Part shown: positions 4,675 through 10,782 of the stretch, piece after piece | How the letters are laid out: every line of letters starts with the position of its first letter | Numbering within the stretch: position 1 is the first letter of the stretch | DNA from: Planctomycetota bacterium | GTDB lineage: Bacteria; Planctomycetota; SZUA-567; JAFGGJ01 | Direction of reading: 5' to 3' | Length of the DNA: 64,000 nucleotides | Assembly: GCA_016930595.1 (NCBI GenBank) | Contig: JAFGGJ010000027.1 | Coordinates: 1-64,000 of the forward strand | The notes under the pieces: generated by a model | The model's input: only the letters and a program-made list of their open reading frames with translations | Told to the model about the DNA's origin: nothing | The model's database searches: none | Made by a program: the position numbers and the translations under genes

Positions 4675-5910
4675 ATGGACGACTCCGACAGAAACATCAT
4701 CCGTGAACTCGCCCGCCGCGTCGCGGATATCGCCTCCCGCCCCGTCATGCGGGAACGCATCGCCCTCTGGAAACGCCATAACTCCCTCAGACCCGCGCGC
4801 CCCATGGTCCTCGTCTTCCCGGAAGGCTCCTGGCGCGAACTCCTCCCGCCTTCAGCACTCGAATGCCGCGACGAAGAAGCCCGCCGCATCGAAGCCTCCC
4901 TCAGGCGCCGCCTCTTCTACGACGAAATCCTCCCCGACGACACCGTCGTCGACGCCACCTGGCTCGTCCCCAAAATCGCCAGCGTCACCGGCTGGGGACT
5001 CGAACCGCGCAATCACCCCAGCTCCGATCCGACCGGAGCCTGGGGCTTCGACCCCGTCCTCAACTCGCGCTCCGACCTCGAAAAAATCACCATGCCTCAG
5101 GTCGTCTACGACGAAGCCGAAGCCCGCTCACGCCTCGACTCCGCCTCCAGCCTCTTCGGCGATATCCTCGACGTCCGCCTGGCCGGCACCAGAACCATCA
5201 GCTTCCACCTCGGCGCTCTCTACGCCTACCGACGCGGCCTCGAACAGATGATGATCGACATGTACACCGACCCCGCCCTTATCCACGAAACCATGGCGCT
5301 CTTCGAAAAAGGCTGCGCGGGGCTCCTGCAGCAGTACCTCGATAACAACCTCCTCGACCTCAACAACGACAACAGCTACCAGAACTCCGGCGGCAACAGC
5401 TGGACCGATGAACTCCCCGCCCCAGGCTTCAACCCCGATCGCGTCCGCCTCCGCGACCTCTGGGCCGCCGCCGAATCCCAGGAACTCGCACAGGTCTCCC
5501 CGGATATGCACAGGGAATTCGTCTGGCAGTATGAACGCCGCCTCCTTGAACCCTTCGGCCTCACCGGCTACGGATGCTGCGAAGACCTCACACGCAAGCT
5601 CGACTTCGTCACCGCACTCCCCAACATGCGCCGCATCTCCGTCTCCCCGTGGGCCGACGTCGATAAGTGCGCCGAACGGCTCGGCGGCCGCTTCATCTTC
5701 TCCTGGAAACCCAACCCCGCCATGCTCTGCGGCTCTTTCGATGAAAACGCCGTCCGCTCATATGTCCAGCACGCCGCGGACGCCGCCCGGGCCAACGGCT
5801 GCGTCCTCGAAATGGTCCTCAAAGATACCCATACCTGCGAAAACCGCCCCGAACGCTTCACACGCTGGCTACGGATCGCCTCGGAAATCGCCCTCAGCTC
5901 CGCCGGCTGA
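4675..5910 (+). CDS. Uroporphyrinogen decarboxylase-like (UroD/MtaA-type) protein, 411 aa
   Basis: Belongs to the UroD fold family that includes corrinoid:CoM and other cobamide-dependent methyltransferases. Visible features are a long helical N-terminus, an RxxxWKRHN region, the central GYGCCEDLTRKLDFV segment and the late FIFSWKPNPAMLCG strand typical of the non-heme UroD-like subgroup common in Lentisphaerota and Planctomycetota. Haem synthesis is unlikely given the context. It lies 50 bases after the glycosidase gene with GGGGAG before the ATG, so the pair is probably co-transcribed. Its 3' end overlaps the convergent esterase gene by 17 bases. The methyl donor and acceptor are unknown. 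Confidence 0.75.
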   Translation: MDDSDRNIIRELARRVADIASRPVMRERIALWKRHNSLRPARPMVLVFPEGSWRELLPPSALECRDEEARRIEASLRRRLFYDEILPDDTVVDATWLVPKIASVTGWGLEPRNHPSSDPTGAWGFDPVLNSRSDLEKITMPQVVYDEAEARSRLDSASSLFGDILDVRLAGTRTISFHLGALYAYRRGLEQMMIDMYTDPALIHETMALFEKGCAGLLQQYLDNNLLDLNNDNSYQNSGGNSWTDELPAPGFNPDRVRLRDLWAAAESQELAQVSPDMHREFVWQYERRLLEPFGLTGYGCCEDLTRKLDFVTALPNMRRISVSPWADVDKCAERLGGRFIFSWKPNPAMLCGSFDENAVRSYVQHAADAARANGCVLEMVLKDTHTCENRPERFTRWLRIASEIALSSAG

Positions 5911-7045
5911 GATGCCGGTCGAACCATTCGAACGCGCTCGCCTGCATCTCCAGGTCGAACTTGTGCGGCCCGGGGTACAGCTCGCACTTCAGCATCTCCC
6001 CCGCACCCCCCTTCCCGAACGTCTCCTCCAGTATCCCGAACGCCCTCTTCACCTCGCTCAGCGTGTACAGCTCGTCCTCCGTCGTGTTCTGCACCATCGT
6101 CGCCGCGGGCGCCCTCAGCGCCAGTATCTCCGGAAAGTCCAGGTCCCTCGGCACCAGCGGCGTGTACGCCATCCACGTGTGCGTCCAGTTCTTGTACAGC
6201 AGAAAATCCCTCCACGTCGTCATGAATCCCACGCATGCGCAGCACCTGACGCGCTCGTCCAGCCCCGCAAGGTACGCCGTCCGCATCCCTCCACCTGAAA
6301 GCCCCCCGCATCCCACCCTCCCGGCGTCCACCTCCGCCCGCCCGCACAGCACGTCCAGCGCCCTCATGTCCTCAACAACGTACACCCCGGGCCACGTCGT
6401 CCCCGCGCACAGCAGGCTCTTCTCCATCTCCGTCTCGTGCCGCCCGGCGAACCCGTTGTACTTCGCTATCGCTTCGGCGTCGTCCCCCTCCGGATCCACG
6501 CCGCCACGGCGGATCGCCTCCGGCACGTCCGCCACCCTCACACGCCTCGACGCAAACGGAAACGTGTCGTGCACCAGCACACCGTACCCCCTCCGGGCCA
6601 GCTCCGTCGCCCACCCCGCTCCGCCGTAATAGCGCTCCTGGTGCTCCGCCTGCACCTTCCACGGATCCCCGTCCGTCCGGCTGATCTTCCTCCACCCCAT
6701 GTACTTGTTGCCCCCGTGGTCGTGCAGCCCCAGCACCCCAGGCAGCGGCCCCGCCTCCCCGGCCGGCTTCATGAACACCGCCTCCGTGCGCGGCCCGCAC
6801 GCAAGCTGCCACGTCAGGTACTCCACCTCCACGCCGTCGTGTACCCCACTCTCCTCCACGCGCGCCTCGGGCGTGCCCCCGAGGTCCACCGGCGCCATGC
6901 ACTCCAGCACCCTCTTCCGCCCGGCCTCGCGCCACTCCTCAAGCGACGCGTACCGCCCCGTCCTGTACGACATCCCCGCCGGGCCCTCACCCAGCACCGC
7001 GTCCGACAGCCACCCCCCGTAGCCCCCCGCCATGTTCGGTCCCAT
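5894..7045 (-). CDS. Alpha/beta hydrolase, dienelactone hydrolase/acetyl xylan esterase-like, 383 aa
   Basis: Predicted serine hydrolase of the large alpha/beta type seen near polysaccharide genes. The nucleophile elbow is GLSGGG with Ser250. An acidic residue in NTTEDELY and His in PGPHKFD near the C-terminus complete a plausible triad. The GLHDHGGNKY segment around residue 106-115 supplies the oxyanion region. No signal peptide is visible. The start at 7045 is preceded by AAAGGAGCGGAG. It is separated from the permease gene by 30 bases on the same strand and may share its transcript. Substrate could be an acylated sugar, but this is inferred. Confidence 0.75.
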   Translation of the reverse strand: MGPNMAGGYGGWLSDAVLGEGPAGMSYRTGRYASLEEWREAGRKRVLECMAPVDLGGTPEARVEESGVHDGVEVEYLTWQLACGPRTEAVFMKPAGEAGPLPGVLGLHDHGGNKYMGWRKISRTDGDPWKVQAEHQERYYGGAGWATELARRGYGVLVHDTFPFASRRVRVADVPEAIRRGGVDPEGDDAEAIAKYNGFAGRHETEMEKSLLCAGTTWPGVYVVEDMRALDVLCGRAEVDAGRVGCGGLSGGGMRTAYLAGLDERVRCCACVGFMTTWRDFLLYKNWTHTWMAYTPLVPRDLDFPEILALRAPAATMVQNTTEDELYTLSEVKRAFGILEETFGKGGAGEMLKCELYPGPHKFDLEMQASAFEWFDRHLSRRS

Positions 7046-7075
7046 CTCCGCTCCTTTCCCCGCCTCCCACGCCGC

Positions 7076-8557
7076 TCAGCGCCCGCCTTCCGCCCCATCC
7101 TCTACAGCCGCGCCCCCCCGCTCCACCGCCCCCATGTGCGCCGCGGGCGCCTTCATCTCCGGCATGAACGGCGTCAGCAGGCTTATCCCCAGCCACGCCA
7201 CCGCGCATGTCACCACCCCGGCCAGCAGCCCCACCTTCAGCCACTCGAAAAACCCGATGTGCTTACGGTACCTCTTCTCGAGCTGCCCCAGCGCCACTAT
7301 GTTCGCCGTCGACCCTATCATCGTTATGTTGCCCCCGAAACACGCCCCGAACAGCAGCGCCCACCACAGCGGCATCGAATTGAACTCCTTCACCACCGGG
7401 ATGAACGCCGCCACGAACACCACGTTGTCCACGAACGCCGACCCCACCGCGCTCGTCGCCAGCACCACCGGCACCAGCGCCGAAGGACTGTCGCCGAACG
7501 TCCTCGCAAAGTCCGTGGCCACCTTCACCGTCACCCCCGTGTGCTCCAGCGTCCCGGCCTTCGCAAACACCATCATGAAGAACAGCAGCGTCCACCACTC
7601 CACCTCCCCCTCCACGTAGTGCCTCGCACGCTCGTGCCTCCACAGCATCAGCACCCCCGCCACCGCCATCGGCGCCACTATCAGCATCGTGTTCGTCGCC
7701 AGCCCCAGCGCCCCCTCCAGCCGCGTGTGGCTCGCTATCAGCGCCAGCAGCACCAGCAGTATCGCCAGCCCCTTCCCGTACGGGATCCGCACCATCGGCC
7801 CCAGCCCAAGCCCCTGCTCCCGTCTCTCCTTCAGCTTCTCCGACAGCAGCGCTATGTCCTTCCTGTACCACGCCGCCACCAGCGCCAGCGCGGACACCAG
7901 CGACAGCAGCATCACGGGAAACGCCCACGTGATGAAGTCCGGGAACGTCAGCCCGGACTTGTGCCCTATCAGTATCCCCACCGGGTTCCCCAGCATCGTC
8001 CCGCTCGACCCTATGTTCGTCGCCAGCACCGCTATTATCAGGAACGGCGTCGGCCTCAGCTTCAGCGTGTCGCATACCTGGAATATCAGCGCGCTCATGA
8101 ACACTATCGACGTCACCTCGTCCACCGCGCACGCCATCAGGGCGCTCAGTACCACCAGCGTCACCGTGAACAGCCCCCCCGTCATCCCCTTCATGCTTAT
8201 CACCGACTGGATTATCCAACTGAAGAACCCCAGCTCCTTCAGCGCTCCCACCGTCACCATCATCCCCACCAGGAACATTATCGTCGGCAGCTCGCACGAC
8301 TCCACGAAACTCGTTATGTCCAGCACCTGCGTCGCCAGCAGCGTCACTATCCCCAGGAACGCTATCGCCAGCCGGAACTTCCAGAAAAACAGCGTCGCAA
8401 ACACCGTCACCGTGAATATCCCTATCGACACCAGCTGCAGCCCCTCGAACCCGCCCAGGTACGCCGCCCCGGTCACCCCCGCCGCTATGCCACCAAGCAT
8501 CACCGCCTTCGCCGGCAGCGACGACCCCGCAGCGTACATGCTCCCCGTCCACGTCAT
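7076..8557 (-). CDS. ArsB/NhaD-type ion permease (IT superfamily), 493 aa
   Basis: Integral inner-membrane transporter with about 11-12 hydrophobic segments. The two-repeat architecture and motifs such as NIGSSGTMLGNPVGILIG and GGNITMIGSTANIVA, in the re-entrant loops, match the ion transporter superfamily (NhaD Na+/H+ antiporters, ArsB, CitM-like). An acidic site, CAVDEVTSIVF, lies in one helix and SAFVDNVVFVAA in its partner repeat. The C-terminal tail is acidic and Ala/Gly-rich. It starts seven bases after the EIIA-CBS gene, so the two are one operon. The ion is not determined. Confidence 0.8.
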   Translation of the reverse strand: MTWTGSMYAAGSSLPAKAVMLGGIAAGVTGAAYLGGFEGLQLVSIGIFTVTVFATLFFWKFRLAIAFLGIVTLLATQVLDITSFVESCELPTIMFLVGMMVTVGALKELGFFSWIIQSVISMKGMTGGLFTVTLVVLSALMACAVDEVTSIVFMSALIFQVCDTLKLRPTPFLIIAVLATNIGSSGTMLGNPVGILIGHKSGLTFPDFITWAFPVMLLSLVSALALVAAWYRKDIALLSEKLKERREQGLGLGPMVRIPYGKGLAILLVLLALIASHTRLEGALGLATNTMLIVAPMAVAGVLMLWRHERARHYVEGEVEWWTLLFFMMVFAKAGTLEHTGVTVKVATDFARTFGDSPSALVPVVLATSAVGSAFVDNVVFVAAFIPVVKEFNSMPLWWALLFGACFGGNITMIGSTANIVALGQLEKRYRKHIGFFEWLKVGLLAGVVTCAVAWLGISLLTPFMPEMKAPAAHMGAVERGGAAVEDGAEGGR

Positions 8558-8564
8558 CCCGCGC

Positions 8565-9488
8565 TCAATCCCTCAGCACTTTCCGTATGAAACCCTGCAG
8601 CGTCACCACCCCCACCAGCTTCTTCCCCTTCACCACGAACACCTCGCGCGCCTTGCCGCGCGCTATCTCGCGCGCCACCTGCACCGCAGGGGCCTCCACC
8701 GGCACCGTCGCGTACTCCGTCGACATTATGTCCGCCAGCCACGTCTTCCCCTCGTTCTTCAGCACCTGCACGAACGGCTCGAAATGCATTATCGGCGACA
8801 GGTCCTCCATCCACAGCAGGTAGTCCGGCAGCGCCACCCTCAGCAGCTCGTACGCCGACACCATCCCCACCAGCTCCCCCGTCTTGTCCAGAACCGGCAG
8901 GTCCACGAGGTTGTGCTTCGCAAACATGTCGATCGCGTGCTCCAGCTTGTCCGTCTCCTGCACCGACACCACGTTCCTCGACATGATGTCTCCCGCACAC
9001 AGGTGTTCCGGCAGCACCGCCCCCCTGTCGAAATACCTCCACACCTCTTCCGCCGAACCCAGCCCCGCCACCCGTTCCGCCGCCTCAGCGTCTTCCACCA
9101 GCCCCGCCAGCGAACTCACCGCCTGCAGGTAGCTCCCCGGCGCGTCCTTCGGCACCAGTATCACTATCACCAGCTTTACCGCCGCCTGTCCCTCCACGCA
9201 GAAATCTATCCCCTCCCGGCTCGTCGCCACCCCCACCACCAGCTCCGCCACCGCTTCCAACCTCGCGTGCGGCAGCGCCACCCCGGGCGCAATCACCGTG
9301 CACTGCGCCTCCTCACGCTCCATCACCGCCCCGTACGCCTCGTCCACGTTCCCTATCCCGCGGTCGTACGCCAGCCGTTCCAGCACCTTCCGGATGACTT
9401 CGTCCCGGCTTGCGGCGCCCACGTCGCATATGATGTCCCTGGGGCCGAAAAGGGCCGAAAATTTCACGCTGCCGTTGAAATTCGCCAT
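8565..9488 (-). CDS. PTS EIIA-like (PtsN type) plus tandem CBS regulatory protein, 307 aa
   Basis: Cytoplasmic regulator. Residues about 8-155 form an EIIA domain of the fructose/nitrogen type with the phosphorylatable His74 in LPHARL. Residues about 175-307 hold two CBS motifs (AGDIMSRNVVSV and LADIMSTEYATVPV) that usually bind adenine nucleotides. The start is placed at 9488 because a promoter spans 9531-9560, which excludes longer starts, and GGCGGG lies at suitable distance. It is followed after seven bases by the permease gene, implying that it gates or senses transport. No EI, HPr or EIIBC gene lies in the window. Confidence 0.8.
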   Translation of the reverse strand: MANFNGSVKFSALFGPRDIICDVGAASRDEVIRKVLERLAYDRGIGNVDEAYGAVMEREEAQCTVIAPGVALPHARLEAVAELVVGVATSREGIDFCVEGQAAVKLVIVILVPKDAPGSYLQAVSSLAGLVEDAEAAERVAGLGSAEEVWRYFDRGAVLPEHLCAGDIMSRNVVSVQETDKLEHAIDMFAKHNLVDLPVLDKTGELVGMVSAYELLRVALPDYLLWMEDLSPIMHFEPFVQVLKNEGKTWLADIMSTEYATVPVEAPAVQVAREIARGKAREVFVVKGKKLVGVVTLQGFIRKVLRD

Positions 9489-9530
9489 CTGTTTCCCGCC
9501 GCTGTTTCCGTTCATAACCCGTTCACTGCC

Positions 9531-9560
9531 ATATTGTTGCCGGGATAGCACCGATGTCAA
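9531..9560 (-). promoter_or_regulatory. Promoter of the EIIA-CBS/permease operon
   Basis: On the minus strand TTGACA (9555-9560) and CAATAT (9531-9536) are 18 bases apart. Transcription would start near 9524, giving a leader of about 36 bases before the ATG at 9488. Confidence 0.55.
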
Positions 9561-9593
9561 GCGGTTTCCGCCCGGAGTGAAATTTCCGCCCCA

Positions 9594-9621
9594 GGCGCCG
9601 GCAGGAACCCGGGCCGGCGCC
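9594..9621. repeat. Perfect 9-bp inverted repeat GGCGCCGGC/GCCGGCGCC
   Basis: The arms lie at 9594-9602 and 9613-9621 with a 10-base loop. A second inverted repeat, CCCGAA/TTCGGG, follows within 40 bases. The pair sits between divergent promoters, exactly where plus-strand composition changes from C-rich to G-rich. No T run follows, so it is not a simple terminator. Confidence 0.5.
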
Positions 9622-9667
9622 GAATTATCCCGAAAACCCGCGAATTCGGGCCCAAAAAGGGCTTGAC

Positions 9668-9687
9668 TTAACCGGTTAACCGGTTAA
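9668..9687. promoter_or_regulatory. Operator of GntR regulator: two overlapping TTAACCGGTTAA palindromes
   Basis: TTAACCGGTTAA occurs at 9668-9679 and again at 9676-9687, sharing four bases and forming one 20-bp perfect palindrome. TTGACT (9663-9668) directly precedes it as a likely -35 box, so bound repressor would block the promoter. It lies 30 bases before the regulator's start codon, which points to autoregulation. Confidence 0.7.
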
Positions 9688-9717
9688 CATATAACCGTAC
9701 AAGTGAAAGGGCCGTTC

Positions 9718-10782
9718 ATGCCGCGCCTGTTCCATAAAATTCCGATGTACGCCCAGATTCGAGACATCCTGGCGGACAGGATCACTCTGGGCGAGTTCCA
9801 CCGGGGCGAAAAATTGCCTTCCGAACGCGAATTATGCGCCGAATTCAACGTTTCCAAGCACACGACGATCCGTGCGCTGAACGAACTTGTGGCGATGGGG
9901 CTGGTGCGGCGGGCGCAGGGGAAGGGGACGTTCGTCGCCGGGACTTCGGTGAAGGCCGGGGTGGTGCGTTTCGTGTTTTACCGGACGGCCGTGGAGCTGC
10001 CGCTGGACGTGTACTATGCGTCGATACTGGGTGCGGTGGAGAAGAGGATATCGGAGAGCGGGTACGACCTGGCGGTTTCGTCAGTGGGGACGAACCGGGA
10101 GGTGTTCGGGGCCGTGGAAGAGGGATACCTGATGGTGGGGCCGGTGCCCGACGAGATAGTGGAAGAGGGGGTGGAGAAAGGGGTACCGGTGGTGACGATA
10201 GACCATCCGGGGTGCCCGATAGAGACGAACGTGGTGGCATTCGACGAGGTGGCGTCGGGGAAGCTGGCGGCGAGCGTGCTGCTGGGCAAAGGCTGCCGGG
10301 ACATAGGGTACGTGGGGGAATACGAGAGCCGGTCGGAAGACAAGAGGGAATGGCCGAATTCGCGCCTGAGGCGCACGGGCGTGGAGATCGCCCTGGCCGA
10401 AGCGGGGGAGCCGCTGGAGGAAGAGCGTTGTGTCACGATATGCAGGACGGCGGAGCTGAAGGAGTTCATAGAGGAGCGCATTGAGGGGAAAAACCTGCCG
10501 GAGGCGTTCGTGACGTTCAACGACGGGATTGCCGGGACGCTGCTGGAGACGCTGGAAGAGGCGGGGCGGCGGATGGACCGTGAGCGGGTGGTGAGTTTCA
10601 CGTCGCTGGCGAACGGTGCGACGGCGGCGGCGGGGACGCGGATAGCCGGCGACCCTGGGCGGCTGGGAGCGAGCGGAGCCGACATGCTGCTGAGGTGGAT
10701 GAAGAAGCGCGGAAGGAAGCCGGAAAGGGTGCTGCTGGAAAGAAGCGCCGTCGACACGGCCGGACACAGTGTGCGGCCGTGA
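9718..10782 (+). CDS. GntR-type repressor with LacI-like sugar-sensing domain, 354 aa
   Basis: Transcriptional regulator of the AraR-like architecture. Residues about 5-75 are a GntR winged helix (PMYAQIRDILADRITLGEF, GEKLPSERELC, RRAQGKGTFV). The rest is a periplasmic-binding-protein-like effector domain (LMVGPVPDEI, VVTIDHPG, DIGYVGEYESR, AFVTFNDG). The ATG at 9718 follows GAAAGGG; a GTG at 9703 in the same frame is less likely. The palindromic operator upstream indicates self-repression. The effector is probably a sugar. Likely targets are the following secreted-protein gene and perhaps other glycan genes. Confidence 0.85.
   Translation: MPRLFHKIPMYAQIRDILADRITLGEFHRGEKLPSERELCAEFNVSKHTTIRALNELVAMGLVRRAQGKGTFVAGTSVKAGVVRFVFYRTAVELPLDVYYASILGAVEKRISESGYDLAVSSVGTNREVFGAVEEGYLMVGPVPDEIVEEGVEKGVPVVTIDHPGCPIETNVVAFDEVASGKLAASVLLGKGCRDIGYVGEYESRSEDKREWPNSRLRRTGVEIALAEAGEPLEEERCVTICRTAELKEFIEERIEGKNLPEAFVTFNDGIAGTLLETLEEAGRRMDRERVVSFTSLANGATAAAGTRIAGDPGRLGASGADMLLRWMKKRGRKPERVLLERSAVDTAGHSVRP

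Follow-up and report, generated by a model that had tools for sequence, protein, structure and literature searches.

A putative two-gene transport unit: EIIA-CBS proteins encoded beside IT-superfamily permeases in Planctomycetota and other phyla

The window, the 64,000-nucleotide stretch analysed here, belongs to contig C39 in a planctomycetote genome assembly (3.4 Mb, 82% complete). It encodes a protein that joins a PTS EIIA domain to a pair of CBS domains, and 7 nt (bases 8558-8564) separate this upstream gene from one for a permease of the IT superfamily. The arrangement raises the question of whether the first protein controls the second, and whether it would do so through phosphorylation, ligand binding or both. 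An earlier note on the window had described the pair and proposed that PTS-type phosphorylation and nucleotide sensing could gate ion transport; its description of an EIIA and CBS-pair protein with an intact His, 7 nt upstream of an IT-superfamily permease, is confirmed by the translations and by Pfam.

Genes, domains and PTS background

The features of the locus, in transcriptional order, are as follows.

9533..9560, minus strand: promoter-like site upstream of the regulator gene (TTGACA-16-AACAAT, 10/12; consensus match only)
8565..9488, minus strand: EIIA-CBS regulator gene (translation of 307 aa; Pfam; AlphaFold model of mean pLDDT 90.2)
9027..9449, minus strand: PTS_EIIA_2 domain, residues 14-154 (Pfam; whole-genome match; fold match to PtsN)
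9267..9269, minus strand: His74 codon; presumed phospho-acceptor (lines up with the His of EIIA domains)
8835..8996, minus strand: CBS1, residues 165-218 (best Pfam CBS stretch)
8772..8828, minus strand: inter-CBS linker, residues 221-239, PDYLLWMEDLSPIMHFEPF (alignment of 107 proteins)
8571..8735, minus strand: CBS2, about residues 252-306 (second Pfam CBS stretch; limits from the predicted model)
7076..8557, minus strand: IT-superfamily permease gene (translation of 493 aa; CitMHS in Pfam; model of mean pLDDT 89.4)
8120..8122, minus strand: permease Asp146, in the VDEVTS motif of the first repeat (invariant in alignments A4 and A6)
7427..7429, minus strand: permease Asp377, in the AFVDNVVF motif of the second repeat (alignment of regulator/permease pairs)

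Because the two genes share a strand, are closely spaced and have a promoter-like site 5′ of the regulator, and because no terminator-like site was found in the region 6800-9900, they likely form an operon, which we call putative. A 383-aa gene (5894-7045, minus strand) starts 30 nt past the permease on the same strand and may be co-transcribed with it; it has no Pfam or NCBIfam match, and no recurring gene occupies its position in other loci. On the other side, the palindrome TTAACCGGTTAA occurs twice, in overlapping copies, at 9668-9687 of the window, just 5′ of a divergent GntR/LacI-type regulator gene (9703-10782). No further copies with at most one mismatch occur elsewhere in the window, and the pair is a candidate operator.

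The EIIA domain scores above the Pfam gathering cut-off for PTS_EIIA_2 (E 1.9e-23; 83.5 bits against 27), and its fold is that of EIIA-Ntr, matching the PtsN structures 3urr_A and 2a0j in Foldseek with a TM-score by target of 0.87. Narrower models fall below their cut-offs, both the PtsN equivalog TIGR01419 (47.6 bits against 138.7) and the fructose-type fruA (63.9 against 103.5). LPHARL occupies residues 72-77, with His74 intact as had been stated. Among 107 aligned regulators this residue is His in 99, Tyr in seven and a gap in one truncated protein, and it is His in 16/16 EIIA reference fragments aligned with them; Arg58 is kept in 90/107 rows. In searches with the regulator model (pTM 0.75), CBS proteins and PtsN were matched separately, no solved chain spanning EIIA and CBS together being found among the best 50 Foldseek matches listed.

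The CBS pair is matched by Pfam in two stretches (82.2 bits, cut-off 24), as it was in all 51 family members checked. The linker between the two domains is the most conserved element outside the CBS glycine 208, exceeding both His74 and the nucleotide motif: Pro221 and Pro238 are found in 107/107 regulators and Phe236 in 106/107. Its pLDDT in the predicted model, about 70-80, is below that of the domains. The CBS nucleotide motif, of the ribose-binding type, is S/T-x-x-D/E. In CBS1, residue 211 is S or T in 87/107 and residue 214 is D or E in 66/107, counts that are compatible with a nucleotide site in many members, while the equivalent positions of CBS2 vary widely and are poorly kept. Diadenylate cyclase domains were found in 10/10 genomes searched; their presence does not settle the CBS ligand, and we leave c-di-AMP to one of the alternatives below.

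The permease belongs to the IT superfamily by its CitMHS match (E 1.8e-46; 159.3 bits, cut-off 31.9). Its model (pTM 0.87) is nearest among solved folds to ArsB (10tp_A; Z 41.1, rmsd 2.4 over 407 residues, 19% identity), followed by the best DASS entries (Z 33-36), human NaS1 (Z 36.0) among them, and a profile search likewise ranks ArsB first (E 3.1e-23). Membership of these families was rejected on curated cut-offs, for ArsB (29 bits against 457), for the NhaD Na+/H+ antiporters (48.4 against 577.1) and for the DASS sodium-coupled anion symporters (57.9 against 198.6); the best NCBIfam match, MamN, is also under its cut-off. Five permease homologues miss the NhaD, ArsB and DASS cut-offs too. 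The label "ArsB/NhaD-type" given earlier is thus apt for the superfamily and too specific for the family, NhaD, ArsB, DASS and MamN all lying well below their cut-offs. Since these cut-offs are missed we claim no substrate; the ArsB-like fold of the model is no guide to it, and it may differ from those of ArsB, DASS and MamN. Twelve of the homologues in other loci are longer by about 100 aa (562-594 aa; L095, L096, L105, L108, L113, L120, L123, L126, L127, L132, L133 and L137); an extra C-terminal part is seen in L120 and L132, and that of L120 has no Pfam match.

The genome encodes seven EIIA_2 domains, one HPr, one protein with an EI N-terminal domain and two PEP-utilizers_C matches. On contig C14 the HPr gene is close to an EIIA_2 gene, and the EI gene is on that contig too, some 10 kb away. 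For the families searched, the remark that the pair has no further PTS gene nearby is borne out, the remaining EIIA_2, HPr and EI genes being on other contigs. Neither PTS_IIB (PF02302) nor PTS_EIIC (PF02378) has a match in the 82% complete genome, so the EIIB and EIIC partners expected of a sugar PTS EIIA were not found. With EI, HPr and seven EIIA_2 domains present, and neither EIIB nor EIIC found, the PTS of this genome looks, from its gene content, regulatory rather than sugar-transporting. HPr kinase (PF07475) has no match in the genome either, and we therefore propose no input from it. A second EIIA_2 protein of the genome (L054:7072-7545, minus strand) gives a weak Band_3_cyto match below the cut-off; EIIA and the cytosolic domains of anion exchangers share a fold.

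Conservation of the gene pair

We examined 106 comparison loci: 25 from 60 relatives, 80 from a contig collection and one Fusobacterium vincentii record from a plasmid collection. Those of the relatives are the 25 best regulator matches besides the window (E 5.3e-19 or better), some weaker matches serving as controls only. Those of the contig collection are the best 80 of 95 loci confirmed after an alignment-based search; a search of that collection with the single regulator protein found nothing. The counts therefore apply to the nearer members of the family, and the number of phyla is a lower bound.

At 100 of the 106 loci a permease homologue (blastp E 1e-4 or better) follows the regulator in the same orientation, with a median gap of 20 nt and a range of -53 to 444, start codons having been chosen by script. 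In the contig collection alone the figure is 76/80, and among distinct regulators it is 93/99, as seven of the relatives' loci duplicate contig-collection loci. The phyla represented are Planctomycetota, Lentisphaerota, Kiritimatiellota, Verrucomicrobiota, Spirochaetota, Fibrobacterota, Hydrogenedentota and Fusobacteriota. The lack of a conserved neighbourhood, named beforehand as a ground for refutation, was not what we found: the same gene order recurs across several phyla, and this conservation excludes a chance pairing. No permease homologue was found at any of 17 control EIIA loci without CBS domains (flanks up to 1.5 kb).

The six exceptions are of three kinds. At L065 the contig ends at the regulator gene. 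At L081, L106 and L119 no permease homologue was found in about 4 kb downstream, where unrelated genes lie, preceded at L081 by a masked stretch directly after the regulator. At L052 and L053 the regulator is located apart from the permease. In these last two genomes, G014 and G028, a close permease is encoded on a different contig from the regulator (L148 for L052:4702-5652, and L149 for L053). At the Fusobacterium vincentii locus (L057:5157-7734) the regulator gene precedes a tandem pair of similar permease genes.

Clustering of the neighbouring frames of 80 loci gave no third recurrent gene. One neighbour cluster spans 20 loci, its example frame overlapping the permease antisense, and other clusters reach at most four loci; the frame picker dropped some true genes for antisense frames, so the regulator and permease counts in that clustering run low. 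Seen from the permease side, 61 genomes (the 60 relatives and our own) hold 16 permeases at >=49% identity, that is, at least 49%, and the regulator is adjacent in 14; for the other two, in genomes G014 and G028, it is on another contig. More distant permeases are mixed, some standing with a regulator (L151-L155, L157) and others without (e.g., L150, L156, L158, L159). Protein distances of regulators and permeases correlate (Mantel r 0.84, with 0/999 permutations as high), as shared species history alone would also bring about; nearest neighbours agree between the partners in 44/90. The conserved placing of the genes side by side suggests that the regulator controls the permease, and functional coupling of the two is likely.

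The proposed unit and its alternatives

We put at roughly 0.55 the probability that the locus is a two-gene transport unit, in which a soluble EIIA-CBS protein serves as the dedicated regulator of the downstream permease and is controlled by both phosphate and ligand. Phosphate from HPr would charge the EIIA domain at His74, and the CBS pair would read a nucleotide or other small ligand. The inter-CBS linker, the proposed contact surface, would pass both inputs on to the permease at its cytosolic face. On the model of PtsN and YcgO of E. coli, the unphosphorylated regulator would likely hold the permease shut and phosphorylation would release it. We infer, rather than observe, physical contact, gating and its direction, and likewise whatever is said of ligand and substrate. 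The gating proposed in the earlier note is partly supported. Coupling to the permease has strong support in gene order, from the 100/106 loci and 0/17 controls. The phosphorylation input gains from the presence of EI and HPr and from His74 in 99/107 regulators and loses from Tyr in 7/107 with EI and HPr retained; nucleotide sensing stays a possible input, the motif being only partly kept in CBS1 and poorly in CBS2.

The Tyr74 rows represent six distinct proteins (L014, L017 = L128, and L038-L041), which together with the His-bearing L052 and L053 make one clade of nine rows, the latter two nesting inside. The Tyr proteins also lack Arg58, and each adjoins a permease (e.g., the paralogue at L038:3979-4920). 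The genomes that bear them (G012, G022, G023 and G026) encode HPr and an EI N-terminal domain, so the loss of His is not for want of a donor, and phosphorylation is not required in every unit. G012 and G023 each have one His copy and two Tyr copies, every copy with its own permease, and counterparts between these genomes share 93-96% identity in regulator and permease alike. Permease residue 377 is Glu in 7/7 Tyr-bearing pairs and Asp in 80/80 of the His-bearing pairs that have E after Asp146 and this column present. We rejected this correlation as independent proof of coupling, since it comes from one lineage and since the separate permeases L148 and L149, from the genomes of L052 and L053, read AFIENIVF though the EIIA-CBS protein there has His; from these alignments it is a lead. 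A wider scheme, which we advance only tentatively, is that ion permeases of one class, widespread in Planctomycetota, Verrucomicrobiota and relatives, might be gated in trans by PTS phosphorylation and a CBS ligand acting through the linker, one clade having become blind to phosphorylation (His to Tyr, with Asp to Glu in the permease) beside a His version in the same cell.

The same clade lends itself to a reading in which the EIIA domain is a degenerate scaffold and His74 a relic, the CBS pair and linker acting on the permease in response to a nucleotide, ATP/AMP or c-di-AMP, which would be the true signal. Most members of a paralogue clade that retains the permease have Tyr in place of His, the linker is better conserved than the His, the diadenylate cyclase domains could supply one such signal in every genome searched, and CBS control of transporters is established for OpuA, CorB and MgtE (PMC10710835). 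His in 99/107 and Arg58 in 90/107 are nevertheless more than a relic should show, and the CBS2 motif positions vary widely; we consider this reading rather unlikely. Somewhat less probable still, in our estimate, is that the regulator acts on metabolism or transcription elsewhere, as PtsN does in many bacteria, and that the permease is its partner by co-expression only, for example under pH or ion stress. Several targets are reported for E. coli PtsN (PMC13104625), and 5/106 regulators stand apart from a permease although their contig continues, but the paralogous copies of G012 and G023, each with its own permease and 93-96% identical between genomes, fit a dedicated pair better. That the regulator is simply the EIIA of a sugar PTS, placed beside the permease by history, has its likeness to the fructose-type family to commend it (the fruA score, itself below cut-off). 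We set this reading aside as very improbable, PTS_IIB and PTS_EIIC not having been found in the 82% complete genome and the gene order being kept over phyla with no third gene.

If the dedicated two-gene unit is real, it would provide a regulator for an uncharacterised permease family and unite PTS phosphorylation with CBS ligand sensing, which are mainly known apart. It would also help to explain the role of EI, HPr and many EIIA proteins in Planctomycetota genomes of the present kind, with neither EIIB nor EIIC found. Natural paralogues that have Tyr for His are a ready comparison for the contribution of phosphorylation.

Comparison with known systems

Among the open-licence PMC papers searched we recognised none on an EIIA-CBS protein with an IT-superfamily permease; one candidate (PMC5333916) was discarded, being related by wording only. 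The closest likeness is to PtsN and YcgO of E. coli. There, PtsN in its unphosphorylated form binds YcgO and inhibits its K+/H+ antiport, an interaction that becomes weaker on phosphorylation (PMC11808508); TrkA and KdpD are also under PtsN control (PMC13104625). The present regulator has an EIIA domain of the same Pfam family, which would likewise be charged by EI and HPr-like proteins and, when unphosphorylated, would keep a transporter shut. PtsN has no CBS pair, whereas here one sits on the EIIA protein. YcgO is a CPA1 protein with RCK and CorC domains of its own and, in the passages on it, is not reported as encoded beside ptsN (PMC11808508), whereas the present permease is of the IT superfamily and adjoins its regulator.

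Likeness to Leptospirillum ferriphilum ArsB (10tp), the DASS/INDY transporters and MamN is in the fold of the permease, at 19% identity for ArsB. LacS is a fusion, whereas the regulator here is a separate protein. Control of LacS, LacY and MalK uses the EIIA-Glc fold, which is unrelated to this EIIA, and their cargo is sugar. Non-PTS transporters whose activity depends on PTS phosphorylation include LacS of streptococci and lactobacilli and, under EIIA-Glc, LacY and MalK; LacS is given as the only case of a transporter controlled by being phosphorylated directly (PMC10710835). In OpuA, CorB/CorC and MgtE transport is gated by tandem CBS domains that sense a nucleotide (PMC10710835); their CBS pair is within the transporter, whereas here it is on a separate protein, fused to an EIIA domain. 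The regulator and permease would thus combine PTS and CBS control in one trans-acting protein with a permease of its own.
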